From a virus: DNA of 38,354 bases. The position numbers were made by a program, and so were the translations under genes. Shown here piece after piece: positions 1,945 through 38,291 of the stretch (position 1 is the first letter of the stretch; each line of letters begins with the position of its first letter). Location of the stretch: positions 1 to 38,354 of the IMG/VR virus record IMGVR_UViG_3300010354_000223. One strand, written 5' to 3'. A model generated the notes under the pieces. That model worked only from the letters and a program-made list of their open reading frames with translations. It ran no database searches and was not told where the DNA came from.

Positions 1945-1972
1945 TGCAAAGTTAACGAGTAAATGATAGAGT
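1945..1972 (+). promoter_or_regulatory. Promoter, leaderless type, for gene at 1979
   Basis: TGCAAA at 1945-1950, preceded by GTG-type context and followed by GTT, then 16 nt, then TAGAGT at 1967-1972. The ATG at 1979 follows after exactly 6 nt. The spacer is one base shorter than the 17 nt of most copies. There is no Shine-Dalgarno between the -10 box and the start. Confidence 0.55.
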
Positions 1973-1978
1973 GGAACC

Positions 1979-2197
1979 ATGAGAGCAGAACTATACACCA
2001 GTGAGATTGATTCAGAAAAACACGGTGATCTATTCTTGGAGATGTTTGTAGATGGAACACTGAGAATTGTTTCCGTTGATTATCACGAAAGTACTTCTTT
2101 CTCTCTTCCTCCCACCCCGGAAGGTTGGAAAGAGGCAGAGAACCTAATCGGGGCACTTCAGGAATGGGTGAAACATACCAAGGGATTGGATAGGTGA
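1979..2197 (+). CDS. Hypothetical protein (72 aa)
   Basis: Begins with beta-strand-like segments (L-F-L-E-M-F-V-D-G-T-L-R-I) and ends in an amphipathic helix (W-K-E-A-E-N-L-I-G-A-L-Q-E-W). The promoter-like box ends 6 nt before its ATG, so the message may be leaderless. No family recognised. The next gene starts 6 nt downstream. Confidence 0.65.
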   Translation: MRAELYTSEIDSEKHGDLFLEMFVDGTLRIVSVDYHESTSFSLPPTPEGWKEAENLIGALQEWVKHTKGLDR

Positions 2198-3272: not shown

Positions 3273-3536
3273 ATGTACCCTATCACTACACTCGGACGTG
3301 ATCCCCACGGAAACCCCTCCTCCCAACCTCCCTTCAAATCCGGGGTGAACCGAGGTTACCGTAGGGTGGAGAAGGAAGGTAGGTGGATCCACGTGGGTGG
3401 TTACGCGTACGAATCACGGAGTGAGGTGAGATCCACATGTTGGGAGTGGGTGAGATCCCTCCAGGATCTGGGATTACGAATCGGTTCACACGATCACGAG
3501 GGGGTAAAGGAGTTCTACGTGTTCAAACCCGTGTAA
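3273..3536 (+). CDS. Hypothetical basic protein (87 aa)
   Basis: Starts immediately after the previous stop; AGGAG at about 3264 precedes the ATG. The product is Gly/Arg-rich at the N-terminus with W-I-H-V-G-G-Y-A-Y and a C-terminal F-Y-V-F-K-P-V strand. No domain recognised. Its stop codon lies inside the -35 box of the next promoter (TGTAAA at 3532). Confidence 0.65.
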   Translation: MYPITTLGRDPHGNPSSQPPFKSGVNRGYRRVEKEGRWIHVGGYAYESRSEVRSTCWEWVRSLQDLGLRIGSHDHEGVKEFYVFKPV

Positions 3537-3560
3537 ATTGGAATCACGAGATGATAGGAT
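3532..3560 (+). promoter_or_regulatory. Promoter, leaderless type, for gene at 3567
   Basis: TGTAAA at 3532-3537, a 17-nt spacer, TAGGAT at 3555-3560, then 6 nt to ATG 3567. The -35 box overlaps the TAA stop of the upstream gene. This matches the GC-rich-zone promoters more than 25 kb away in sequence, spacer and distance to the start codon. Confidence 0.75.
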
Positions 3561-3566
3561 GATCAC

Positions 3567-3794
3567 ATGAGTGAAGAGATCTACAACACGCGCAAACGCC
3601 CGTACACCTTCAAGGTTCTACACCTCGATCGTGGGAGGAAGTACGGTGGAAACATCACGATCCACGCGTACGATCGTTCAGAAGCGATTGAACAGTTCAA
3701 GGATACCCGCCTCACCCTCAAAGAGATCCATGAGGATTATGATATCTACCCACTGGGTAAGGATTGTTATGAATTCTCCTGTGAGCCCGCATGA
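3567..3794 (+). CDS. Small protein, paralogue of the gene at 5728
   Basis: 75 aa. It shares N-T-x-K-R-P-Y-x-F near the start, A-Y-D-R-x-E-A-I-E-Q-F-K in the middle and a C-E-P-A end with the protein at 5728-5949, so the two are duplicates. The central A-I-E-Q-F helix between strands is reminiscent of small alpha/beta phage proteins. A strong leaderless-type promoter precedes it. The stop overlaps the ATG of the following G-D-L-V gene by 4 nt. Confidence 0.75.
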   Translation: MSEEIYNTRKRPYTFKVLHLDRGRKYGGNITIHAYDRSEAIEQFKDTRLTLKEIHEDYDIYPLGKDCYEFSCEPA

Positions 3795-8155: not shown

Positions 8156-9007
8156 ATGCCCGAAGGACCAGAACTAGCATATAGCAGAGATCGTTTGAAG
8201 AAGCTAATTGAGGGACGGAACCTACTCGAGGTAACACCGGGTATCTCCGGTCGGTATGCAAAGAAGCTACCAGAGGGATACTTGGAGTTCAACAAGCTCG
8301 TGGAGGCATCACTTGTCAAGGTGGATGAGATCGGAACCCGCGGCAAGTTCATGTGGTGGAGGTTGCAAGTTCCGGGTGATCCTGAGTATTGGTTCATGCA
8401 CTGCACCTATGGCATGAGCGGCGCGTGGCAAACGAAGCCCACGAAGCACTCAGCTTTCATGGTCGGTTACGGTACCCACAAGATCACTCGTGATGGTGGG
8501 TTCCTGTATTTCAACGATGCGCGTCACTTCGGAACCATCAAGTTCTTGCGCGGTGGAGCACTACATCGGAAGAAGCTGGAGAGCCTCGGTCCGTGTATCC
8601 TGGGTGGGCAGCTAACTCCAGAAATATTCGCGGAAAAGATGCTTAGAAAACCTGCCCTGCCAATATGTGAGGCCATGATGGATCAGGCAGGTGTATCTGG
8701 CATCGGCAACTATCTGAGGGCCGAAATCTTATATGACTGCAGAGTAGATCCCTGGCGGAATGTAACAGATATCACGAGCGAAGAGTACGTGAAGTTGTGT
8801 AAAGCAACGGTGAGGATCGCGGAGGCATCCTACAAGTCTCAGGGAGCAACAATCTCTACATATCGCACGGTTGATGATTCGAAGGGAACTACACAATTCG
8901 ATTTCGAAGCATACGGGCGAAAGGAGTGTCCATTGGGTCACGAGATCACGCGGAAACAGGATGGCAACGGGCGGATGATGCACTGGTGCACGAGGTGCCA
9001 AACGTGA
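8156..9007 (+). CDS. Formamidopyrimidine-DNA glycosylase / endonuclease VIII family
   Basis: 283 aa, normal length for Fpg/Nei. The protein starts M-P-E-G-P-E, so Pro2 is the Schiff-base nucleophile and Glu3 the catalytic acid. T-R-G-K (residues 61-64) gives the conserved lysine. The H2TH region is at about 174-200 (A-G-V-S-G-I-G-N-Y-L-R-A-E-I-L). The C-terminal finger is C258, H262, C278, C281, where usual Fpg enzymes have four Cys. The enzyme removes oxidised bases and nicks the DNA. A strong ribosome site (GGAGAGGAG) precedes ATG 8156. The stop overlaps the SET gene start by 4 nt. Confidence 0.93.
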   Translation: MPEGPELAYSRDRLKKLIEGRNLLEVTPGISGRYAKKLPEGYLEFNKLVEASLVKVDEIGTRGKFMWWRLQVPGDPEYWFMHCTYGMSGAWQTKPTKHSAFMVGYGTHKITRDGGFLYFNDARHFGTIKFLRGGALHRKKLESLGPCILGGQLTPEIFAEKMLRKPALPICEAMMDQAGVSGIGNYLRAEILYDCRVDPWRNVTDITSEEYVKLCKATVRIAEASYKSQGATISTYRTVDDSKGTTQFDFEAYGRKECPLGHEITRKQDGNGRMMHWCTRCQT

Positions 9008-10689: not shown

Positions 10690-10718
10690 TGCAAAGTAAG
10701 TTACACCTGTAATAAGGT
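10690..10718 (+). promoter_or_regulatory. Promoter, leaderless type, for UvdE
   Basis: TGCAAA at 10690-10695, followed by GT, a 17-nt spacer in all, TAAGGT at 10713-10718, then 7 nt to ATG 10726. This is the consensus of the 33-36 kb promoters, and it argues against the upstream GTG 10717, which lies within the -10 box. Confidence 0.75.
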
Positions 10719-10725
10719 GTGTATC

Positions 10726-11658
10726 ATGCTAGGTATCTGCTGTCACTTCCTTAGAGAAGAAACCAAACCGCGCTCTGGTGAGAAGATCTACGTTAATGCC
10801 ATGGAGGAACGCACGCTCCAGTTGGGTAGGTATCGGAGCGGCAAGTACACTCCCGAGATGATCAAGGGTACTTACGTGAACAACGTGAAGAACCTCGCCA
10901 CAATGCTCCCTAAGATTCGCAAGTCTGGTGCGAGGCTCTTTCGCATCTCCTCCGCTATGTTCCCTCTTGCCGATCAGGTCGATCGCGAGCTGTGGGACAA
11001 TGACGAAGTAAAGAAGTGGCTCAAGGTTGCCGGTGAATACGTGCTCGCCAATGACATGCGTGTTACCACACATCCAGGTCAGTTCTGTGTGCTCTCTTCT
11101 GATTCTGATTCCGTGGTGGAGAAGGCTTTCGTGGAACTGGGCATCCACGGCTGGTTGTTCGATGAGATGGGACTGGATCACTCCGCCAAGTGGGCCATCA
11201 ACATCCACGGCGGCAAGGGTGACCGATCTTCGAGGCTCATCGAACAGATCAAGTCTCTGCCGGATAACGTGCGGAAGCGACTCACACTCGAAAATGACGA
11301 AAACAGCTATTCTGTGATCGATCTACTGGCAGTGTATCAACAAACGGGTGTTCCTGTAGTGTTCGATTCTCATCACCACACTTTCAATGATGGTGAACTT
11401 TCGATGCGTGATGCACACGATCTGACAATTCAAACGTGGTCCAACGGCATCAGACCTCTCCAGCACATCAGCAACACTGAGCCCTCTCTTGCTAGCGGAT
11501 CTAAAACAGATCGTCGCAAGCACAGTGATATGATTCACTATGTACCTGAACCTCAACTACAGGCGCTTCGTGATGATACTATCGATGTTGAAGTCGAAGC
11601 CAAACAAAAGAACCTTGCTGTGACCAAAATGGCTACAGATTTCTCAATTCCAATCTGA
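10726..11658 (+). CDS. uvsE: UV-damage endonuclease UvdE/UvsE
   Basis: 310 aa. It has the TIM-barrel metal-binding motifs of UVDE: T-H-P-G-Q-F (about 115-120), N-I-H-G-G-K, L-E-N-D-E, F-D-S-H-H-H, H-I-S-N, H-S-D-M-I and a final V-E-V-E-A-K-Q-K-N. The enzyme nicks DNA 5' of UV photoproducts to start excision repair. With the Fpg-type glycosylase it gives the phage two damage-entry enzymes within 3.5 kb. The promoter position fixes ATG 10726 as the start. Phage copies of this family are known. Confidence 0.93.
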   Translation: MLGICCHFLREETKPRSGEKIYVNAMEERTLQLGRYRSGKYTPEMIKGTYVNNVKNLATMLPKIRKSGARLFRISSAMFPLADQVDRELWDNDEVKKWLKVAGEYVLANDMRVTTHPGQFCVLSSDSDSVVEKAFVELGIHGWLFDEMGLDHSAKWAINIHGGKGDRSSRLIEQIKSLPDNVRKRLTLENDENSYSVIDLLAVYQQTGVPVVFDSHHHTFNDGELSMRDAHDLTIQTWSNGIRPLQHISNTEPSLASGSKTDRRKHSDMIHYVPEPQLQALRDDTIDVEVEAKQKNLAVTKMATDFSIPI

Positions 11659-24602: not shown

Positions 24603-25163
24603 TTAGAAACTATACATTAGTGCGACATTCGGCCATGGCCTGAATGAGTCGAATGCAATTTTTCCACTTTTTACCTCGAACACAAACGCTGCGGGAAGAT
24701 CGAAAGAAAATGCATAGTTTTCGAAGAAGTTGAACTTAAACCCAAGCCCAGGTCCAGTAGCAAATCCGTTTGTCCATGTTTTTGTGATTATTGGATCAAC
24801 TGGTGGGTTGGGAATTGGGTTGCCGCTTGGGTCTAGCTTGCTTTCGACAATTGGCCACACGTAATTCGTAACCATTCTGTGCCATCCTACGAATCCCATT
24901 GAGAGATAAACACTTCCGTGTTTGTTTCGATCAAGTGTGTACAGGCCTGTAAGACCTTCTACCATGAAAGAATTGTCATTCGTGTAAAAGGGAAGCGCAG
25001 AAGCCTGCACTCCCCAATTGTTGTCCCAGTCGTATCTTGCTGCAAATCCAGCTCCAATTGTGGGACCTGCTCCAAAACCGAGCGACCAATTCTTTATCGG
25101 TTCGGCGTGAACATTAGCGGATATTAGAGATGCAGCGAAAGCATAGATGAACGACTTATACAT
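24603..25163 (-). CDS. Outer-membrane beta-barrel-like protein (186 aa)
   Basis: ATG 25163 gives a clean signal peptide (M-Y-K-S-F-I-Y-A-F-A-A-S-L-I-S-A-N-V-H-A). The mature part has alternating strands (L-G-F-G-A-G-P-T-I-G-A-G-F-A-A-R-Y) and a final aromatic strand ending Y-S-F, the usual barrel C-terminus with terminal Phe. Its stop is 4 nt from the end of the convergent patatin gene. A resident of the host outer membrane. Confidence 0.74.
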   Translation of the reverse strand: MYKSFIYAFAASLISANVHAEPIKNWSLGFGAGPTIGAGFAARYDWDNNWGVQASALPFYTNDNSFMVEGLTGLYTLDRNKHGSVYLSMGFVGWHRMVTNYVWPIVESKLDPSGNPIPNPPVDPIITKTWTNGFATGPGLGFKFNFFENYAFSFDLPAAFVFEVKSGKIAFDSFRPWPNVALMYSF

Positions 25164-31875: not shown

Positions 31876-32084
31876 TTCAATTCCTCGAGGGCGTCGAGCG
31901 AGACCCACCCCCACTTGTCTGAGAGGATCACCTTCACGTACGTGTGCCACAGGTGGTACCTCTCCCGCGGGAGGACGAAGCCCACCTCACCCGGTCGAAA
32001 TTCTCCGAGGATGGTGTCGAGGTCTTCGTCGTAGAGGTGAGCCCAAGCGTTCTCCCTCTTGACCGTCACAGCTGGGAGACTCAC
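31872..32084 (-). CDS. SH3/KOW-like family protein, minus strand (70 aa)
   Basis: A GTG start overlaps the AT-hook gene stop by 4 nt. F-R-P-G-E-V-G-F-V-L, Y-V-K-V-I-L-S-D-K-W-G-W-V and A-L-E-E-L match the second half of the family; the N-terminal G-D-L-V is replaced by an acidic lead. Middle gene of the 32614-31603 operon. Confidence 0.7.
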   Translation of the reverse strand: MSLPAVTVKRENAWAHLYDEDLDTILGEFRPGEVGFVLPRERYHLWHTYVKVILSDKWGWVSLDALEELK

Positions 32085-32614
32085 TTGGCCTTCCTCGCTG
32101 CCTTCTTCGCTTCCTTCTCGGCCTTGATCTCCTCCTTCGATCGGTTCTTCGCGCCCTTGGGACGGCCGCGGCCACGCTTCGGGGCGTTCGGGTCCACGGG
32201 AGCGACGTCCTCCACCGGGTTCTTGCGCGGGCGGCCGCGCTTCTTCTTCGTCGAGACGTTCACCTTGCCCGTGGCAAGCTTGAAGACGGTGCCGAAGCGA
32301 ATGCCTTCCTTCCAGTTCATGATGGCGTTCTGCTCGAGCTGCTCATCGAAGAGGTGGAGACGACCGGTAAACTCGTCGTGTCGCACCACGCGGTAGGTCT
32401 TCGTGTCGAGGTAGGGCTTGCCGCGGAGGAAGGAGGAGTATCGCTCGATCACGATCTTGTCGCCCTCGCTGAATTGAGCCACCCCGCCCACGATCGCGTC
32501 CGGGAGGCGGGAGATGTCGGGCTTGTTGACCGCTGCTTTGTTCCCGAGGATCGCGAGAGCGTCGGACGAGACGAAGTCGGAGACGGAATCGATGTCGATG
32601 GCCTTTTGTTCCAT
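32081..32614 (-). CDS. AT-hook DNA-binding protein (177 aa)
   Basis: The C-terminal third has two AT-hook cores: K-K-R-G-R-P-R-K at about 125-132 and K-R-G-R-G-R-P-K-G at about 147-155. A Lys/Ala/Glu-rich tail follows. AT-hooks bind the minor groove of AT-rich DNA. The N-terminal 110 residues include strand-like D-K-I-V-I-E-R-Y and T-Y-R-V-V-R-H. A protein like this could organise DNA or regulate AT-rich phage promoters. The promoter at 32621 predicts a leaderless message with ATG 32614. It leads an operon with two small-barrel proteins. Confidence 0.78.
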   Translation of the reverse strand: MEQKAIDIDSVSDFVSSDALAILGNKAAVNKPDISRLPDAIVGGVAQFSEGDKIVIERYSSFLRGKPYLDTKTYRVVRHDEFTGRLHLFDEQLEQNAIMNWKEGIRFGTVFKLATGKVNVSTKKKRGRPRKNPVEDVAPVDPNAPKRGRGRPKGAKNRSKEEIKAEKEAKKAARKAK

Positions 32615-32620
32615 GAGATC

Positions 32621-32649
32621 ATCCTACCAAATCTGTGAGTGACTTTACA
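32621..32649 (-). promoter_or_regulatory. Promoter, leaderless type, for AT-hook operon
   Basis: On the minus strand: TGTAAA (complement of 32644-32649), 17 nt, TAGGAT (complement of 32621-32626), 6 nt to the ATG at 32614. Confidence 0.82.
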
Positions 32650-32709: not shown

Positions 32710-32985
32710 CTACTTCTTGATCTTGGGTGCGGGAATCCCGAGGATCTTGTGGACCTGACGGGAGGACACGTTCATCACGTAACCGTCAGGCATCTCGACC
32801 ACGTAGTCGACGTACTGGTATGATCCTTCTCGCTTCAGCTTGTGCTTCAGGATGCGGACCTCGGTCCCGACCGGATAGGACTTCTTGATCCATTCTCCCG
32901 TCTCGGGGTCCTCATCTTGAATCGCTCGGGGTGCTTCGAGCTGGTAGGTGGTGCCGGTGGGGAGGATGCCTTCGATGTTTGCCAT
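32710..32985 (-). CDS. Hypothetical small beta-rich protein (91 aa)
   Basis: P-V-G-T-E-V-R-I-L-K, Y-V-D-Y-V-V-E-M-P-D-G-Y-V-M-N-V and a final K-I-L-G-I-P-A-P-K. Strand order resembles the small-barrel family (G-T-E-V for G-D-L-V) with an extended N-terminus. The leaderless-type promoter fixes ATG 32985. Confidence 0.7.
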   Translation of the reverse strand: MANIEGILPTGTTYQLEAPRAIQDEDPETGEWIKKSYPVGTEVRILKHKLKREGSYQYVDYVVEMPDGYVMNVSSRQVHKILGIPAPKIKK

Positions 32986-32991
32986 GAGATT

Positions 32992-33020
32992 ACCTTACCC
33001 TTTTCTCAATGAACTTTGCA
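32992..33020 (-). promoter_or_regulatory. Promoter, leaderless type, for gene at 32985
   Basis: Minus strand: TGCAAA (complement of 33015-33020) followed by GTTC, 17-nt spacer, TAAGGT (complement of 32992-32997), 6 nt to the ATG. Confidence 0.85.
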
Positions 33021-33106: not shown

Positions 33107-33421
33107 TCAGACCGTGACTTTTTCCCACGAACGACCGAAGCGGTCTTGCTCGTAGAGGATTCCCGTCTTGGTCTTGGCGTAGAGGCGGCCACCGAGGTTG
33201 CCCGACGGCCGTTGCTCACGGAAGAAACCGCCAACGAAGCGCTTCACGTCGGAGGGGGCAACCGCCCATTGTGAGACCTCCACTTTGACGAGGCGGGACA
33301 TCATCCTCGAGGTCTTTGCCTTTTCCTCCATCTTATAGCGGCGTGCCGAGATCTTGCCCTCCAGCTTGCGAAGGTCGGCGAGGTCGAGGGAATCAATGGC
33401 GGAGAGGAGTTCCTTGATCAT
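33107..33421 (-). CDS. Hypothetical basic protein (104 aa)
   Basis: An N-terminal helix (L-L-S-A-I-D-S-L-D-L-A-D-L-R-K-L) is followed by a basic, strand-rich C-terminal half with G-G-R-L-Y-A-K and Y-E-Q-D-R-F-G-R-S-W. No family recognised. Promoter spacing fixes ATG 33421 and predicts a leaderless message. Confidence 0.72.
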   Translation of the reverse strand: MIKELLSAIDSLDLADLRKLEGKISARRYKMEEKAKTSRMMSRLVKVEVSQWAVAPSDVKRFVGGFFREQRPSGNLGGRLYAKTKTGILYEQDRFGRSWEKVTV

Positions 33422-33427
33422 GAGATT

Positions 33428-33456
33428 ATCTTACCTCTTTGCTAATGAACTTTGCA
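33428..33456 (-). promoter_or_regulatory. Promoter, leaderless type, for gene at 33421
   Basis: Minus strand: TGCAAA (complement of 33451-33456), 17 nt, TAAGAT (complement of 33428-33433), 6 nt to the ATG. Confidence 0.85.
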
Positions 33457-33481: not shown

Positions 33482-33697
33482 TTACTCCGGGAGGAGACCC
33501 ATCTCGACGGCGGCCGCATCCGACTTGGCGTTCTCGTACGCATCGATGAACCGCTTGGCGGTGTAGACAAGTGATTCCGCGGCCTCGCGCTCGTAGCGGG
33601 ACTTGAGGGTGTCAAGGCCGTCGTCCTCGATGGCGTTGAGGCAGTCGACCAGGGCATTGAGGGTGTTCTCGAAGCGGCAGTAGCTCATGTTGGCCAT
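33482..33697 (-). CDS. Hypothetical helical protein (71 aa)
   Basis: Starts M-A-N-M-S-Y-C-R-F-E-N-T, followed by long helices rich in Ala, Asp and Glu. The M-S-Y-C-R-F-E-N-T start is one I associate with small phage hypothetical proteins. Unlike its neighbours this gene has a leader with a ribosome site, CAACGAGGAA about 15 nt before the ATG. Confidence 0.72.
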   Translation of the reverse strand: MANMSYCRFENTLNALVDCLNAIEDDGLDTLKSRYEREAAESLVYTAKRFIDAYENAKSDAAAVEMGLLPE

Positions 33698-33726: not shown

Positions 33727-33755
33727 ACTATACCACTTCCCCCTCAAACTTTGCA
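33727..33755 (-). promoter_or_regulatory. Promoter for gene at 33697, with leader
   Basis: Minus strand: TGCAAA (complement of 33750-33755), 17 nt, TATAGT (complement of 33727-33732). The ATG is 29 nt downstream, so the message has a leader of about 22 nt with a CAACGAGGAA ribosome site. Confidence 0.8.
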
Positions 33756-33776
33756 CTGCCCTCGAAAAATAGTCTC

Positions 33777-33829
33777 TTGAAAGCCACTTTCATCTGTCCC
33801 GAGAAAGTGCTCTTGAATGTCGCTTTCAG
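33777..33829. repeat. Two imperfect operator-like repeats between divergent promoters
   Basis: TTGAAAGCCACTTTCAT at 33777-33793 and TTGAATGTCGCTTTCAG at 33813-33829 resemble TTGAAAGTGACGTTCAA at 35288 and 36000. They lie between the back-to-back promoters at 33755 and 33830, 36 bp apart, and could serve both. Confidence 0.55.
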
Positions 33830-33858
33830 TGCAAAGTTCGTGATCGAAGTGGTATAGT
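33830..33858 (+). promoter_or_regulatory. Promoter, leaderless type, for gene at 33865
   Basis: TGCAAA at 33830-33835, 17 nt, TATAGT at 33853-33858, 6 nt to ATG 33865. It is divergent from the promoter at 33727 and shares the same -35/-10 pair. Confidence 0.85.
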
Positions 33859-33864
33859 GGTTTC

Positions 33865-34002
33865 ATGATCAAAACGGAGCGAAACTTCCACATTGCCGTC
33901 CTCGTCGTCCTCGCCGCGCTCATGATTGGCGACGCAGCCGCCACGGTGGCCACGACGGGCGACGTCCGGTGCCTCTTCGTCAAGTGCGTCATCGTCAAGT
34001 GA
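33865..34002 (+). CDS. Small membrane or secreted peptide (45 aa)
   Basis: ATG 33865 to TGA 34000-34002. After M-I-K-T-E-R-N-F-H comes one hydrophobic segment (I-A-V-L-V-V-L-A-A-L-M-I-G), then A-T-V-A-T-T-G-D-V-R-C-L-F-V-K-C. It may be a single-pass membrane peptide or a signal peptide with a tiny two-Cys product. It is too short for standard gene calling, but the promoter placement supports it. Confidence 0.7.
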   Translation: MIKTERNFHIAVLVVLAALMIGDAAATVATTGDVRCLFVKCVIVK

Positions 34003-34006
34003 GCAG

Positions 34007-34035
34007 TGCAAAGTTCATCAACGAAGTGATAGGAT
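34007..34035 (+). promoter_or_regulatory. Promoter, leaderless type, for gene at 34042
   Basis: TGCAAA at 34007-34012, 17 nt, TAGGAT at 34030-34035, 6 nt to ATG 34042. Confidence 0.88.
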
Positions 34036-34041
34036 AGGACC

Positions 34042-34242
34042 ATGAACAACACCTCGATCACCTACAAGACGCCCTACACCACCCTCCCCATCTTTCAGGT
34101 CACGGCGCCGGATGTGGTTGAGTACGGCTTCAATTGGTCTGACCTGGGCACCTGGTGCTTCTGGATGGGCGGCACCATCTGTGGGTTCTACCCCACCCGC
34201 GAGGAGTGTGAGGAGCGAGTGGCAAATCTTCTCGCCGACTGA
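34042..34242 (+). CDS. Hypothetical protein (66 aa)
   Basis: Starts M-N-N-T-S-I-T-Y-K-T-P-Y. Contains W-C-F-W-M-G-G-T-I-C-G-F-Y and a C-terminal helix T-R-E-E-C-E-E-R-V-A-N-L-L. Three Cys. No family recognised. Promoter and next promoter flank it closely, a one-gene cassette. Confidence 0.75.
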   Translation: MNNTSITYKTPYTTLPIFQVTAPDVVEYGFNWSDLGTWCFWMGGTICGFYPTREECEERVANLLAD

Positions 34243-34243
34243 G

Positions 34244-34272
34244 TGCAAAGTTCACCCGTGATGTGATAAGGT
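34244..34272 (+). promoter_or_regulatory. Promoter, leaderless type, for gene at 34279
   Basis: TGCAAA at 34244-34249, 17 nt, TAAGGT at 34267-34272, 6 nt to ATG 34279. It begins 1 nt after the upstream stop. Confidence 0.9.
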
Positions 34273-34278
34273 AAACTC

Positions 34279-34509
34279 ATGATCGACCTACAGGATCTCA
34301 CACCCGCAATGATCAAGCGCGCCTACTTCGGAAAGCCCGGCTGCATGTGCGGATGCCGTGGAAAATACCACACGGTGGACTCGAACAAGGCGATGGTCAC
34401 CAAGATCCTCCGGACCATCCAGGCGAACGAACACCTCCTCGAGACGGGAGGCAGCTATTTTGCTGCTCAGGTGGGTGGGAAGGAATACGTCGTTTATCTC
34501 AGCGAGTAG
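34279..34509 (+). CDS. Hypothetical Cys-motif protein (76 aa)
   Basis: G-K-P-G-C-M-C-G-C-R-G-K-Y at residues 14-26 forms a tight C-x-C-x-C cluster that might bind metal. A helix (V-T-K-I-L-R-T-I-Q-A-N) and a strand E-Y-V-V-Y-L-S-E follow. I recall similar G-C-x-C-G-C-x-G-x-Y proteins in other phages, function unknown. Confidence 0.75.
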   Translation: MIDLQDLTPAMIKRAYFGKPGCMCGCRGKYHTVDSNKAMVTKILRTIQANEHLLETGGSYFAAQVGGKEYVVYLSE

Positions 34510-34538
34510 TGCAAAGTTCCCTCTGAAAGTAGTAAGGT
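34510..34538 (+). promoter_or_regulatory. Promoter, leaderless type, for gene at 34545
   Basis: TGCAAA at 34510-34515, 17 nt, TAAGGT at 34533-34538, 6 nt to ATG 34545. It starts at the base after the upstream stop. Confidence 0.9.
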
Positions 34539-34544
34539 GAGACC

Positions 34545-34919
34545 ATGGCAACACGATCGTTCATCGGCAAGCGGCTCCCCAGCGGCAAAATCATCGGCGT
34601 GTACTGTCACTGGGACGGCTACCCGACGGGCGTAGGCAGGACCCTGAAGGAGCACTACACCGATCCCGTCAAGGTTGACTCCCTCATCGCTCTCGGCCCG
34701 CTCTCCTACCTGGCTCCAGAGGTCGGAGAGAGGCACGACTTCAACAACCCACGGGAAGGATGGACCGTTGCATACGCCCGCGACCGCGGGGACCGTGAAG
34801 TCCGCCAGCTCACCTTCAGCGACGTCCGTTCGATGAAGAGCGGCGTCGCCAACAAGCTCTCCGCCGAGTACGCCTACGTGATGGGCAGGTCGGGAAAGTG
34901 GACGACTTACAAGATCTAG
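34545..34919 (+). CDS. Conserved phage hypothetical protein (124 aa)
   Basis: M-A-T-R-S-F-I-G-K-x-L-P-x-G-K-I, then Y-C-H-W-D-G-Y-P-x-G-V-G and L-K-E-H-Y-T-D-P-x-K-V are a pattern I recognise from many unrelated phages, annotated only as hypothetical. The W-D-G-Y-P core is its best-kept part. A leaderless-type promoter drives it alone. Confidence 0.82.
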   Translation: MATRSFIGKRLPSGKIIGVYCHWDGYPTGVGRTLKEHYTDPVKVDSLIALGPLSYLAPEVGERHDFNNPREGWTVAYARDRGDREVRQLTFSDVRSMKSGVANKLSAEYAYVMGRSGKWTTYKI

Positions 34920-34948
34920 TGCAAAGTTCAGTCACGAAGTGATAAGGT
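34920..34948 (+). promoter_or_regulatory. Promoter, leaderless type, for gene at 34955
   Basis: TGCAAA at 34920-34925, 17 nt, TAAGGT at 34943-34948, 6 nt to ATG 34955. It starts at the base after the upstream stop. Confidence 0.9.
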
Positions 34949-34954
34949 GTGAAT

Positions 34955-35242
34955 ATGAAGAACATCAAGAGCTACTTCATCGCCCAGACGCAGCATCTCA
35001 TCGATATCGATCGCGGCGGCAATCGCCAATTCACGGAGCCGCAGATCTTGGGCGTGTATCGCACGCTCGATGAGGCAAAGGCCGCTCTCGACGCCATCGA
35101 TGCCGGCTACGGCAAAGTGCTGGAGATTCGAAATCCGATTCAAGTGGGCGAGAGCATCATGGGCCTGCCGCCTCGCGAGCACGAATGGGAGCGCACGCCC
35201 CCGAAGAAGGCGGCCCGTAGCCGCAAGGCGAAGGCGGCCTGA
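34955..35242 (+). CDS. Hypothetical protein with basic tail (95 aa)
   Basis: ATG 34955 is set by promoter spacing; the in-frame GTG at 34949 starts at the first base after the -10 box. Helical centre (L-D-E-A-K-A-A-L-D-A-I-D-A-G) and a Lys/Arg/Ala-rich tail (P-P-K-K-A-A-R-S-R-K-A-K-A-A) suited to nucleic-acid contact. A UUCG hairpin follows 11 nt after the stop. Confidence 0.74.
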   Translation: MKNIKSYFIAQTQHLIDIDRGGNRQFTEPQILGVYRTLDEAKAALDAIDAGYGKVLEIRNPIQVGESIMGLPPREHEWERTPPKKAARSRKAKAA

Positions 35243-35253
35243 GGCAAATGCCC

Positions 35254-35279
35254 GGGCGGGCGGCTTCGGCTGCTCGCCC
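35254..35279 (+). terminator. GC-rich hairpin with TTCG loop
   Basis: GGGCGGGCGGC at 35254-35264, TTCG, GCTGCTCGCCC at 35269-35279: 11 pairs including two G-T. There is no T tract, so it may protect the 3' end or be a weak terminator. Confidence 0.65.
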
Positions 35280-35287
35280 TTGCGGTG

Positions 35288-35304
35288 TTGAAAGTGACGT
35301 TCAA
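35288..35304. repeat. Operator-like repeat TTGAAAGTGACGTTCAA, copy A
   Basis: Imperfect dyad (TTGAA...TTCAA) between the hairpin at 35254 and the promoter at 35316. An identical copy lies at 36000. Confidence 0.7.
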
Positions 35305-35315
35305 CATCGACTCAG

Positions 35316-35344
35316 TGCAAAGTTCCTCCCCGAAGTGATAGGGT
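35316..35344 (+). promoter_or_regulatory. Promoter, leaderless type, for gene at 35352
   Basis: TGCAAA at 35316-35321, 17 nt, TAGGGT at 35339-35344, 7 nt to ATG 35352. Confidence 0.87.
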
Positions 35345-35351
35345 AAGAGAC

Positions 35352-35648
35352 ATGGATACGAACACCTCCCCCACCAAGAGCTCCTCCTTCCTCGTCTACG
35401 TCAAGAACACGGACGAGAGCGACAATGAACTCAACTTCCTCGGGATCTTCCCGACCTGGAAGGAGGCGATGGAGTTCCGGAAGCAGTTCCTCATCGACAA
35501 CTTCGACCTCGACGTGGAGGACCTCGACAACGAGACCGAGGTGCTGGAGGCCTTCGAGGAGTACTTCAACGGTAAGCCCGAGGACGTCTACCTCGAGGAC
35601 GGTCACTGTCAGTATCTCATCGACGAGGTCCCCGTCTACGGTAAGTGA
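35352..35648 (+). CDS. Hypothetical acidic protein (98 aa)
   Basis: Acidic, with S-F-L-V-Y-V-K-N-T, a helix W-K-E-A-M-E-F-R-K-Q-F, an Asp/Glu-rich middle (D-L-D-V-E-D-L-D-N-E) and a final strand. High negative charge may hint at DNA mimicry, but there is no direct support. A hairpin follows 10 nt after the stop. Confidence 0.74.
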   Translation: MDTNTSPTKSSSFLVYVKNTDESDNELNFLGIFPTWKEAMEFRKQFLIDNFDLDVEDLDNETEVLEAFEEYFNGKPEDVYLEDGHCQYLIDEVPVYGK

Positions 35649-35658
35649 CGGTCCCGGT

Positions 35659-35691
35659 GCCTCCGAAGGACGTAAAAAATCTTTCGGAGGC
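35659..35691 (+). terminator. Hairpin after gene at 35352
   Basis: GCCTCCGAAGGA at 35659-35670 pairs with TCTTTCGGAGGC at 35680-35691 with one G-T pair, loop CGTAAAAAA. No T tract follows; the promoter of the next gene starts 2 nt later. Confidence 0.6.
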
Positions 35692-35693
35692 AA

Positions 35694-35722
35694 TGCAATG
35701 TTCGATCGCGAAATGATAGATT
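35694..35722 (+). promoter_or_regulatory. Promoter, leaderless type (variant), for gene at 35729
   Basis: TGCAAT at 35694-35699, 17 nt, TAGATT at 35717-35722, 6 nt to ATG 35729. AGGAG also lies within those 6 nt, too close to the ATG for normal use. Confidence 0.8.
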
Positions 35723-35728
35723 AGGAGC

Positions 35729-35956
35729 ATGGAACAACCTAATGCCTCCGAAATCGCCATCGAAGCAATCGAATACCTGGCCGAATACGACGCGAATGGC
35801 TCGCCGTATCACGATCGATCGGCCGATGCCATCGCCGATTTCCTCCTCGAGGAAAAATTCGCCCGCGACGAGGAATGCGATTGGCCTGAGGAATTCTGCC
35901 ACGAATATTTCGAGGCGGCCAAGGCAGCTCTGATCGCCGCCGGCGTGGCGGCCTGA
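35729..35956 (+). CDS. Hypothetical acidic helical protein (75 aa)
   Basis: Ala/Glu/Asp-rich helices (A-S-E-I-A-I-E-A-I-E-Y-L-A-E-Y, A-D-A-I-A-D-F-L-L-E-E-K-F-A) and a C-terminal A-K-A-A-L-I-A-A-G-V-A-A. No family recognised. A perfect TTCG hairpin and an operator-like repeat follow. Confidence 0.73.
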   Translation: MEQPNASEIAIEAIEYLAEYDANGSPYHDRSADAIADFLLEEKFARDEECDWPEEFCHEYFEAAKAALIAAGVAA

Positions 35957-35967
35957 GGCTGCGGACG

Positions 35968-35991
35968 GGCGGGAGGCTTCGGCCTCCCGCC
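35968..35991 (+). terminator. Perfect GC-rich hairpin with TTCG loop
   Basis: GGCGGGAGGC at 35968-35977, TTCG, GCCTCCCGCC at 35982-35991, followed by TTGCTCTGTT. Same design and position as the hairpin at 35254. Confidence 0.7.
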
Positions 35992-35999
35992 TTGCTCTG

Positions 36000-36016
36000 T
36001 TGAAAGTGACGTTCAA
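36000..36016. repeat. Operator-like repeat TTGAAAGTGACGTTCAA, copy B
   Basis: Identical to copy A over 17 bases, again between a TTCG hairpin and a promoter. Confidence 0.7.
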
Positions 36017-36037
36017 GAAAGAATTTCTCCGACCCAG

Positions 36038-36066
36038 TGCAAAGTTCGTTCACAAAGTGGTAAGGT
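36038..36066 (+). promoter_or_regulatory. Promoter, leaderless type, for gene at 36073
   Basis: TGCAAA at 36038-36043, 17 nt, TAAGGT at 36061-36066, 6 nt to ATG 36073. Confidence 0.9.
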
Positions 36067-36072
36067 AGATCT

Positions 36073-36324
36073 ATGGACGCCAACGAGTTCTACACCCGCA
36101 AGGAAGACCTTCTCGAACGCCTCAGCAACGCGCTGTGCGACGTGGAGGAGGCCATGATCCACCTGAAGGCCCTCGAGCGGAAGGCGGAGGATCCGGACAT
36201 GATCGCCCTCGAAGAGCTCGAGCTGCTCCAGGACCACATCCGCGATGCGGGCGACTGGACCACCGGCGAGTGGAATGCTGTCCACCCGATGGCCGAGGCT
36301 GCCCGCCAGGCTGCAAAGAAATAA
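36073..36324 (+). CDS. Hypothetical coiled-coil protein (83 aa)
   Basis: Nearly all helix: L-L-E-R-L-S-N-A-L-C-D-V-E-E-A-M, L-K-A-L-E-R-K-A-E, L-E-E-L-E-L-L-Q-D-H-I, with heptad-like Leu spacing. No family recognised. It sits directly before the RadA-like gene but has its own promoter. Confidence 0.74.
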   Translation: MDANEFYTRKEDLLERLSNALCDVEEAMIHLKALERKAEDPDMIALEELELLQDHIRDAGDWTTGEWNAVHPMAEAARQAAKK

Positions 36325-36336
36325 TCACGAAGCCAG

Positions 36337-36365
36337 TGCAAAGTTCACGGCGGAAGTGATAAACT
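36337..36365 (+). promoter_or_regulatory. Promoter for RadA-like gene, with leader
   Basis: TGCAAA at 36337-36342, 17 nt, TAAACT at 36360-36365. The ATG is 24 nt downstream, leaving room for the ribosome site GAGGAA at 36378-36383. Confidence 0.85.
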
Positions 36366-36389: not shown

Positions 36390-37148
36390 ATGTCGAAGAT
36401 GAACCTCAACGTCGGAATTCGCGGTCTCAAGCACGGTACCTCCATCAACGATATCGAGGTCCCCAGGGCTCTCCGCACTCGCCGCAAGGTCGGCATCTCC
36501 TGGTTTGACGACGCGCTCGGTGGCGAAGGCCTCGTCCCCTCGTCGGTGATGATGCTCACTGGTACTCCCGGCGCTGGCAAGACCACGATGCTCCTCCAGC
36601 TGGCGAACAGCATCACCAAGGCTGGTCACGTCTGCCTCTACAACACCGGTGAGGAGTCGCTCTTCCAGGTGAAGATGGTGGTGGAACGCCTCGGACTTCG
36701 TGAGGGCTTCGTGGTCGGTCAGGACACCACGGTCGCTGGCCTCCTGGAGCACGCGGAGATGCTTCGCAAGGCCAACCCCAACAAGCAGGTCTTCATCCTC
36801 CAGGACTCGCTCCAGACCCTCGACGACGACATCGCTGTGGAACGCGGCGGTGCCAACTCGATGACGCCCCTCCGCTGCGCCGAGGCTCTCACCGACTGGG
36901 CCAAGCAGAACTACGGCATCGTCATCTTCATCGGTCAGGTCACCAAGGACGGTGAGTTCCAGGGCAAGAACGGCATCAAGCACGCCATCGACGCCCACGG
37001 CCACCTCTTCATCGACAAGCAGAAGAAGTCGGAGACCTACGGCGAGCGCATCTTCGAGATCACCAAGAATCGCTTCGGTTGCAGCGGCCGCGCCTACGTC
37101 CTCGGCATCCGCCGCGACGGTCTCTACGAGAAGGGCGAGATCAACTGA
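36390..37148 (+). CDS. RadA/Sms-like recombination ATPase
   Basis: 252 aa. Walker A is G-T-P-G-A-G-K-T at 58-65. Y-N-T-G-E-E-S follows at 84-90, then a Walker B-like strand V-F-I-L-Q-D-S at 134-140 and G-Q-V-T-K-D-G-E at 182-189. The RadA-specific K-N-R-F-G is at 226-230. RadA is a RecA-family helicase that drives branch migration. Host RadA also has an N-terminal zinc finger and a C-terminal Lon-like domain; both are missing here, so this is a core-only version. It may serve phage recombination. It is one of three genes here with the CAACGAGGAA leader. Confidence 0.88.
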   Translation: MSKMNLNVGIRGLKHGTSINDIEVPRALRTRRKVGISWFDDALGGEGLVPSSVMMLTGTPGAGKTTMLLQLANSITKAGHVCLYNTGEESLFQVKMVVERLGLREGFVVGQDTTVAGLLEHAEMLRKANPNKQVFILQDSLQTLDDDIAVERGGANSMTPLRCAEALTDWAKQNYGIVIFIGQVTKDGEFQGKNGIKHAIDAHGHLFIDKQKKSETYGERIFEITKNRFGCSGRAYVLGIRRDGLYEKGEIN

Positions 37149-37169: not shown

Positions 37170-37198
37170 TGTAAAGTCACAGAGCCTTAAGTTATTAT
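37170..37198 (+). promoter_or_regulatory. Promoter for gene at 37255, with leader
   Basis: TGTAAA at 37170-37175 followed by GTCAC, 17 nt, TATTAT at 37193-37198. The leader is about 50 nt and holds a hairpin and a CAACGAGGAA ribosome site. Confidence 0.8.
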
Positions 37199-37254: not shown

Positions 37255-37938
37255 ATGTCCGAAGTCAAGATGTCCGCTATCGATCGTGCTCTCGCCGCTG
37301 CCAAGGCCCGCAAGGCCGCGAAGGAAGCAGCTGGTATTACCGAAAACGATGCTCCGCCCGCTGCACCTCGCAAGGCGGCCGCTGAGCCCAAGGTCAAGGC
37401 TGAACGTCCTACCGACGAGGCCAAGACCGCCCGCAACGCAGAACGCGAGGCACGTCGTGCGGCAAAGGCTGCCAAGGAGGCAGAGGACCGCGCGGCCAAG
37501 GAGGCGCGCAAGGCGGAGCGCGCTGCGAAGCGCGAGGCGAAGGCTGCGGTCAAGGCGGAGAAGAAGCCGGCCCACATGAAGAAGGTGGAGCGCGCTCGCT
37601 CGAAGCTCCGTCCCCTGACGCAGTCGGCCGAGGCGCTCTTCAGCGAGGTGGTCTCCAACTTCGGTGTTCAGGTCATCGAGGACATCGCGGAGCACCTCAT
37701 GGTCCACGCTCGAGCCTACAAGACGCAGCGCGCCACTGCCCTCGAGGCTCTCCCGCTCGGTGCCACGGTCAAGATCACTGGTGGAGATCGCCGCTACATC
37801 GGCATGACCGGCAAGGTGGTCCACTCCCAGCGCCTCCGCGCGAAGATCGAAGTCCCAGGCGTCACCAAGGAGGTCTACATCTACAACGGTGAGGCCGAGG
37901 TGATCGCAGCTGAGGAGGTGCTTGCAGTAGCCGTTTAA
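37255..37938 (+). CDS. Lys/Ala-rich protein with C-terminal KOW/SH3-like domain
   Basis: 227 aa. Residues 1-115 are very rich in Ala, Lys, Arg and Glu with A-K-A-A-K-x-A repeats, a helical, histone-tail-like or coiled-coil stretch. A helical segment at 118-165 follows. Residues 167-225 read L-G-A-T-V-K-I-T-G-G-D-R-R-Y-I-G-M-T-G-K-V-V, then a strand and V-Y-I-Y-N-G-E-A-E-V-I, a KOW-type barrel as in NusG and ribosomal proteins. Binding to RNA, DNA or the ribosome is the natural guess. Confidence 0.77.
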   Translation: MSEVKMSAIDRALAAAKARKAAKEAAGITENDAPPAAPRKAAAEPKVKAERPTDEAKTARNAEREARRAAKAAKEAEDRAAKEARKAERAAKREAKAAVKAEKKPAHMKKVERARSKLRPLTQSAEALFSEVVSNFGVQVIEDIAEHLMVHARAYKTQRATALEALPLGATVKITGGDRRYIGMTGKVVHSQRLRAKIEVPGVTKEVYIYNGEAEVIAAEEVLAVAV

Positions 37939-37972: not shown

Positions 37973-38289
37973 GTCCCCGTAGCTCAGCTCGGATAGAGCA
38001 ATGGCCTTCAATAGGAGCCTTCACATAGAACGGATGTCTGTCAGAATCATCGTCATCCTACAGAATATGTGAAGTGGATATCGCTATATCGGTGAAACTC
38101 GTAAGGATCTAAATGTCCACGACAACACCGAGGAAACCGCTGACACGGGTTCCGTAGAGACTACACGCGATACACCTGGAATGGTGAAGATATAGTCCAG
38201 CGCACAACAATCTGCTAGATAGATTGGCCGTGGAAACACGGAGTGTGAAGCTAAGCCACAGGTCGGAGGTTCGAATCCTCCCGGGGACG
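37973..38289 (+). tRNA. tRNA-Arg(UCU) interrupted by a group I intron
   Basis: Exons 37973-38008 and 38251-38289 join to a 75-nt cloverleaf. The acceptor GTCCCCG/CGGGGAC has seven pairs. The D stem is GCTC/GAGC. The anticodon arm is ATGGC, loop CTTCTAA, GCCAC, with an A-C mismatch at the outer pair. The T arm is GGAGG, TTCGAAT, CCTCC. The anticodon TCT is split after its first base. CCA is not encoded. It reads AGA codons. Confidence 0.88.
38009..38250 (+). ncRNA. Group I self-splicing intron (242 nt) in tRNA-Arg
   Basis: The 5' exon ends in T (38008) and the intron ends in G (38250), as required for group I splicing. P1: exon GGCCTT can pair with AGGAGCC at 38013-38019 with one internal mismatch and a T-G pair at the splice site. 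P2: CTTCACATA pairs perfectly with TATGTGAAG. The catalytic core shows the R-type AGAGACTACAC at 38155-38165 and S-type AAGATATAGTCC, whose GACTA/TAGTC (38159-38163 with 38193-38197) form P7. It carries no endonuclease gene. Confidence 0.9.
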
Positions 38290-38291
38290 CC

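Follow-up and report, generated by a model that had tools for sequence, protein, structure and literature searches.

A uniform promoter abutting the start codons of small genes, and probably leaderless messages, in a clade of T4-related huge phages

Toward one end of a 38,354-nucleotide viral contig (IMG/VR record IMGVR_UViG_3300010354_000223, positions 1 to 38,354; hereafter the window), small genes follow one another closely, each with a copy of the same 30-bp unit ahead of its start codon. What does this unit do, and why does it stand at so exact a distance from the ATG? The best explanation overall, which we hold with considerable confidence, is a promoter of sigma70 geometry from which RNA starts at the A of the ATG, giving leaderless mRNAs for the small genes, with a minority of genes under the same promoter keeping a leader. 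The geometry of the unit, its conservation, its spread and the identity of the start codons are read directly from the DNA; the actual 5' ends, the timing of expression and the factor that reads the upstream box are inferred.

An earlier note on this DNA had described eight plus-strand genes, each preceded by TGCAAA, 17 nt and TANNNT, and all of its coordinates hold on rechecking. The -35-like hexamers begin at 33830, 34007, 34244, 34510, 34920, 35316, 35694 (TGCAAT) and 36038; every one of them has a 17-nt spacer, and the gap from TANNNT to the ATG is 6 nt in seven and 7 nt at 35352. The pattern TGCAA[AT]-N17-TANNNT-N6/7-ATG occurs 11 times in the window, against 5 in total in 300 dinucleotide-model shuffles. 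The array also reaches beyond the span and strand first given for it, with leaderless copies on the minus strand and up to three similar copies in the AT-rich part. That the -35 box starts directly after the previous stop codon is true of many copies and not of others, which have gaps of 3-120 nt; where an upstream open reading frame (ORF) ends nearby, 41 copies have no gap, and in 17 the G that closes a TAG stop is also base -36, counting the A of the ATG as +1. The G+C content of the window jumps sharply at 28-29 kb, from about 0.42 (1-28 kb) to about 0.60 (29-38 kb), and the leaderless array lies in the GC-rich part. The features are as follows; genes called leaderless are so by prediction.

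33830..33858, plus strand: promoter TGCAAA-N17-TATAGT, with the ATG of gene 33865-34002 at N6
33865..34002, plus strand: leaderless small gene, 45 aa; its relative in contig G001 is leaderless too
34007..34035, plus strand: promoter TGCAAA-N17-TAGGAT, ATG 34042
34042..34242, plus strand: leaderless small gene, 66 aa
34244..34272, plus strand: promoter TGCAAA-N17-TAAGGT, ATG 34279
34279..34509, plus strand: leaderless gene, 76 aa, phrog_5930; the family has five leaderless members, four in other contigs
34510..34538, plus strand: promoter TGCAAA-N17-TAAGGT, ATG 34545; base -36 is the end of the preceding TAG stop
34545..34919, plus strand: leaderless gene, 124 aa, phrog_1987 (E 1.4e-25); the family has six leaderless members
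34920..34948, plus strand: promoter TGCAAA-N17-TAAGGT, ATG 34955; base -36 is the end of the preceding TAG stop
34955..35242, plus strand: leaderless gene, 95 aa
35316..35344, plus strand: promoter TGCAAA-N17-TAGGGT, ATG 35352 at N7
35352..35648, plus strand: leaderless gene, 98 aa
35694..35722, plus strand: promoter TGCAAT-N17-TAGATT, ATG 35729
35729..35956, plus strand: leaderless gene, 75 aa
36038..36066, plus strand: promoter TGCAAA-N17-TAAGGT, ATG 36073
36073..36324, plus strand: leaderless gene, 83 aa
36337..36365, plus strand: same-type promoter of the leadered gene at 36390 (leader of ~18 nt with CAACGAGGAA)
36390..37148, plus strand: leadered RadA/KaiC-like ATPase gene; orthologues leadered in 11/11 relatives examined
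37170..37198, plus strand: weaker candidate promoter TGTAAA-N17-TATTAT of the leadered gene 37255-37938, with CAACGAGGAA
33727..33755, minus strand: same promoter, leadered gene 33482-33697 (23 nt leader, starting ATCAACGAGGAA)
33421..33456, minus strand: promoter (box at 33456) and leaderless start (33421) of gene 33107-33421
32985..33020, minus strand: promoter (box at 33020) and leaderless start (32985) of gene 32710-32985
32614..32649, minus strand: promoter (TGTAAA, box at 32649) and leaderless start (32614) of gene 32081-32614; the family has eight leaderless members
10690..10726, plus strand: promoter TGCAAA-N17-TAAGGT-N7-ATG (box at 10690) of the UvdE-like endonuclease gene 10726-11658
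3532..3569, plus strand: promoter TGTAAA-N17-TAGGAT-N6-ATG (box at 3532) of gene 3567-3794
1945..1981, plus strand: promoter TGCAAA-N16-TAGAGT-N6-ATG (box at 1945) of gene 1979-2197

The same arrangement recurs in related phages. Relatives were picked by homology to the leadered ATPase (36390-37148), with promoters ignored, which gave ten viral contigs (17-309 kb, 71-82% identity). The motif is present in every one of them, and a reversed control pattern has no match there. Across nine records (eight relatives and the window, 622 kb), 166 copies have a spacer of 17 and 12-20 copies have each of the spacers 15, 16, 18 and 19. An ATG that opens an ORF lies exactly 6 nt past the -10 box in 112 of the 166; offsets 5, 7 and 8 account for 8, 4 and 3. 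Shuffles of the nine-record set gave 8-18 motif copies, none with a start at 6 or 7. Among 414 unique promoters, a set partly collected with a pattern requiring CATG, ATG stands at offset 6 in 329, at any other offset in at most 9, and GTG stands at offset 6 in only 2. A scan of IMG/VR with GTGCAAAGT-N15-TANNNT-N5-CATG returned 82 stretches, often many per contig, on contigs of up to 298 kb.

The 340 leaderless proteins from these phages (median 76 aa) fall into 160 families, 98 of them singletons; it is therefore the promoter that is conserved, not the gene. The ATG is supported as the true start, since in 244 of 373 alignments between homologous leaderless proteins both partners align from one of their first three residues. 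Homologues anchored at the start of a leaderless gene are themselves leaderless in 220 of 340 places, the rest being leadered, SD-led (preceded by a Shine-Dalgarno sequence, SD) or without a recognisable promoter. Two relatives of ~300 kb have a T4-type Gp23 capsid. Within the annotated phage collection, the relative with the closest major capsid protein is LR756508 (484 kb, 50% identity); it lacks the motif, so within the range tested the trait is confined to this clade.

A logo of the 112 leaderless sites places GTGCAAAGTY, a box of ~10 bp and thus longer than a hexamer, at -36 to -27 and TANNNT at -12 to -7, with a conserved G at -14 that resembles an extended -10 and an A-rich discriminator (AAGACC/AGAACC). 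The 17-bp spacer, the TANNNT and the extended -10 G are all those of a sigma70 promoter. Base -1 is a pyrimidine in 112/112 of these sites and a C in 103. Leaderless genes have been described as marked by a TANNNT whose first T lies ~12 bp ahead of the start codon (PMC3160421), and this mark has been tested experimentally in Deinococcus with 17-bp spacing (PMC12340547). The phage promoters agree with it, the last base of the -10 box lying ~6 nt before the start codon (exactly 6 in 112/166). With +1 at the A of the ATG there would be no room for a leader, and no SD could stand between the transcription start and the start codon.

Independent support for the position of +1 comes from 52 same-type promoters in which no ATG stands there. 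They carry a purine at +1 in 47 cases, and the pyrimidine-purine step at which bacterial RNA polymerase prefers to start peaks exactly at -1/+1 (33/52, with 1-24 at other offsets; 45/79 in a larger leadered set). Because leadered promoters keep this step, the start site appears to be fixed by the promoter, with most genes placing their ATG there and a minority a leader. As far as sequence can tell, the earlier claim of leaderless transcripts from a single promoter type is strongly supported by more than 300 sites of fixed geometry, by the pyrimidine at -1 and by the step in leadered promoters. These -10-adjacent promoters most likely make leaderless, probably early, mRNAs.

Under this interpretation the 30-bp unit would be a promoter so positioned that the first transcribed base is the A of the ATG; every small gene would have its own, and its mRNA would offer a 5'-terminal AUG to be read directly by the ribosome. 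Initiation by 70S ribosomes at a 5' AUG is a known route for leaderless messages. A few genes, the ATPase always among them, would join the same promoter to a leader of ~20-70 nt, often holding an SD-like stretch. The RadA/KaiC-like ATPase is leadered in 12/12 phages (the window and 11 relatives), its ATG lying 24-68 nt from +1, and because its orthologue is leadered in all 12, the choice between a leader and none is, judged by this conservation, non-random. The mixed use of one promoter type proposed earlier is supported, and rechecking confirms the presence of CAACGAGGAA in all three leadered genes of the window (33697 on the minus strand, 36390 and 37255 on the plus strand). The gene at 37255 has a weaker promoter (TGTAAA at 37170), perhaps one of a different class. 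In one relative, G010 (loci L018 and L033-L035; e.g., 33274, 43255 and 46713, all minus strand), most promoter copies are leadered, and the leaders share an GGTGGGGAYGGTNCCCCACC-type stem ahead of the SD; G003 and G008 also have similar leaders, with AGGTGGCAAGGAGCC.

Several points weigh against a promoter that makes leaderless messages. The upstream box is unlike the TTGACA of a canonical sigma70 promoter, and a standard sigma70 consensus scan misses all of these sites. The early timing suggested for the leaderless class comes from gene type and analogy. The most direct objection is that an SD-like core (AGGA/AAGG/GGAG/GAGG) occurs at -12 to -3 in 125/332 leaderless sites (38%) and only 8/79 leadered ones (10%), a difference with p ~9e-7, although copies in related phages are not independent. 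The cores arise mainly through TAGGAT/TAAGGT -10 boxes. They would be inactive in a leaderless mRNA, because they lie upstream of the presumed +1, and read-through mRNA that bears them could account for some of the translation. Read-through is expected, since the box and the preceding stop often touch and terminators are not in excess. The earlier description of one-gene cassettes is accordingly unproven for transcription units, most genes having no terminator signal between them and read-through being likely. We read the SD-like cores as sequences that may serve both as -10 and as SD, not as evidence against leaderless initiation, and prefer this because most sites have no such core.

Which factor reads the box is a separate question. 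Candidates are a host sigma, an activator encoded by the phage, and a phage sigma whose sigma2-3 and sigma4.2 parts are in separate genes. The host core RNA polymerase is probably used, since no phage RNA polymerase beta subunit is recognisable in the relatives. It is possible, though we would not count on it, that these are middle-type promoters, at which host sigma70 RNA polymerase reads the -10 and a phage activator or sigma-remodelling factor, similar to T4 MotA/AsiA, reads GTGCAAAGTY; this concerns the factor only, and the transcripts would remain leaderless. A box of ~10 bp that exceeds a -35 hexamer and is unlike TTGACA suits an activator, and the motif looks phage-specific, being absent outside the phage-like contigs of two metagenome-assembled genomes (MAGs) that hold such contigs. 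The exact 17-bp spacing, however, is what a sigma4-like contact would impose, and no MotA-like protein turned up, although no search was aimed at one.

Relatives of the window, not the window itself, encode a phage sigma (Sigma70_r2, E ~1e-24), found in 8/11 and then in 12/19 records. Over regions 2 and 3 it resembles RpoD, and it ends before region 4.2 (Pfam Sigma70_r2 and r3, no r4). A separate small gene with a region-4.2 helix-turn-helix is present in four records >200 kb (PF04545 positions 21-49, above cut-off), so that sigma70 is apparently split: in G008 the two genes are at 42097-42306 (minus strand) and 286831-287106 (plus strand), and G009, G014 and G015 have the same (L055, L166-L169). 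The small protein has a Cys-rich N-terminus and no match in the annotated phage collection; its helix has R M C Q at what we take to be the positions of the recognition residues R584 E585 R588 Q589 of RpoD. That such a split sigma70, or the small subunit on host RNA polymerase, recognises GTGCAAAGTY and switches on the leaderless regulon is a doubtful proposition. If true, the split sigma would be a phage-encoded transcription system dedicated to leaderless mRNA.

The genes might instead be translated mainly from long polycistronic read-through mRNAs, with the G-rich -10 and discriminator (TAGGAT, TAAGGT, AGGACC) serving as SD and the promoter only topping up transcription. The excess of SD-like cores at leaderless sites speaks for this, as do the tight gene packing, the stop codons fused to the box and the lack of a terminator excess. 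We nevertheless consider it improbable: ~60% of leaderless sites have no SD-like core (TATACT/TATAGT/TATATT boxes alone make up 120/332), the exact 6-nt offset and the pyrimidine-purine step at +1 are constraints of a promoter, not of an SD, and divergent or isolated genes (33421 on the minus strand, 33865 on the plus strand) share the layout.

Another alternative is that the repeats are operators, or start-associated elements, to which a regulator binds and which do not themselves act as promoters. The start-associated sequence (SAS) of cluster K mycobacteriophages is likewise one short element directly before many unrelated phage genes (PMC3203893). It is, however, GGGATAGGAGCCC, a different sequence without this -35/-10 layout and of unknown function (PMC3203893); no GGGATAGGAGCCC element stands immediately upstream of the starts here, and the consensus differs. 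Near-palindromes TTGAAAGTGACGTTCAA upstream of some copies (35288, 36000) would fit an operator, but the unit has the full layout of a promoter and a transcription-start signature, and it precedes leadered genes too (24-68 nt) with the same step at +1, which makes this explanation very unlikely. The TTGAAAGTGACGTTCAA near-palindromes, at 35288-35304 and 36000-36016 (weaker at 33777 and 33813), lie shortly upstream of three promoters and adjoin GC-rich hairpins at 35253-35278 and 35966-35991; they are candidate operators or terminators. Finally, the notion that the motif encodes a conserved N-terminal peptide from the GTG at -36, in frame with the ATG at +1, can be dismissed, as an in-frame stop occurs at -15/-12 in 199/332 leaderless copies, conservation tracks DNA positions (variable spacer, TANNNT -10), and in leadered copies the frame is not kept.

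A second, late-like promoter class accompanies the leaderless promoters. The element (A/T)ATANTTA(T/C/G) is enriched upstream of genes in two ~300 kb relatives (17 vs 1.6 expected in G008, 9 vs 0.6 in G009); these genes often have SD-like leaders, and several are near structural genes. Sites of this class in the window are at 24603 and 28600, both minus strand. The phage sigma of the relatives has region 2 and, like the T4 phage sigma gp55, lacks region 4.2. A sigma without region 4.2 fits late promoters that have no -35, and the ATANTTA element may be of this kind. The leaderless set would be the probable early (or middle) programme of the clade, and late genes would use ATANTTA promoters and SD-led messages. 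In the simplest picture, early and middle genes would be transcribed from the leaderless box promoters by host RNA polymerase, alone or with a phage factor, and late genes by way of the phage sigma.

The clade resembles T4 in the Gp23 capsid of its two ~300 kb members and would also share with it separate late promoters with a -10 only; it differs in the sequences of the box and of the late -10. Early and middle mRNAs of T4 are generally leadered with an SD. The leaderless genes of Actinobacteria and Deinococcus-Thermus have the same -10-to-ATG geometry (Zheng et al. 2011, PMC3160421; Zhong et al. 2025, PMC12340547); a 17-bp -35/-10 spacing enhances them, and an SD-led class coexists, as here. 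The -10 alone is their common mark, whereas here a phage clade has a strongly conserved non-TTGACA box and nearly pure ATG starts. The earlier note had called a leaderless/leadered mix under one promoter type unusual for a phage of a Gram-negative-type host. Leaderless phage mRNA is indeed unusual, but it has a precedent in the Thermus phage phiYS40, which makes many leaderless mRNAs and for which the IF2/IF3 (initiation factor) balance is reported to be altered (PMC3594737). In phiYS40 the middle and late genes are leaderless, whereas in this clade it is the early genes that seem to be leaderless, and the late ones would be SD-led; the promoters also differ. No phage IF3 was found here, and no ribosomal protein S21 scored over the cut-off. 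The leaderless mechanism is thus known from bacteria and leaderless mRNA from phiYS40. No leaderless array in T4-related or huge phages was found in the literature searched, whose coverage was incomplete; as far as it shows, what is new for a clade of T4-related huge phages is how large and how exact the array is and that leaderless and leadered genes are divided under one promoter, and a promoter array has rarely been seen so uniform in a phage group.

The Gram-negative-type host assumed earlier is unsupported. A search with the ATPase through 84,980 species genomes returned only short phage-like contigs in two MAGs (Proteobacteria WB4_3_0938 and Aquidulcis WB6_2A_267), with the motif on three contigs only; because mis-binning is likely, we claim no host. 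Elsewhere the window encodes a MPEGPELxxxR-type DNA glycosylase-like protein (8156-9007), UvdE (10726-11658, E 3e-52) and a phage GroEL (12056-13663, phrog_5725, E 3e-152). At 37981-38290 (plus strand) is a tRNA-Arg(UCU)-like gene, not reported by ARAGORN, whose anticodon loop is interrupted by a group I intron of ~240 nt (RF00028, 33 bits, E 7.5e-7, below the gathering score).

Leaderless translation has usually been studied either in single phage genes (lambda cI) or as a general trait of a host (Actinobacteria, Deinococcus-Thermus). Here an uncultured phage clade, with contigs of up to ~310 kb, sets one promoter before ~160 gene families with base-exact placement and keeps selected genes leadered. 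Nature thus provides leaderless and leadered starts that can be compared under a single promoter, and one can ask whether phages choose how translation begins for each gene separately. The placement also supplies a practical guide to the correct start codons of hundreds of small genes in phages. A constraint on the host follows too: its ribosomes should accept 5'-terminal AUGs well.

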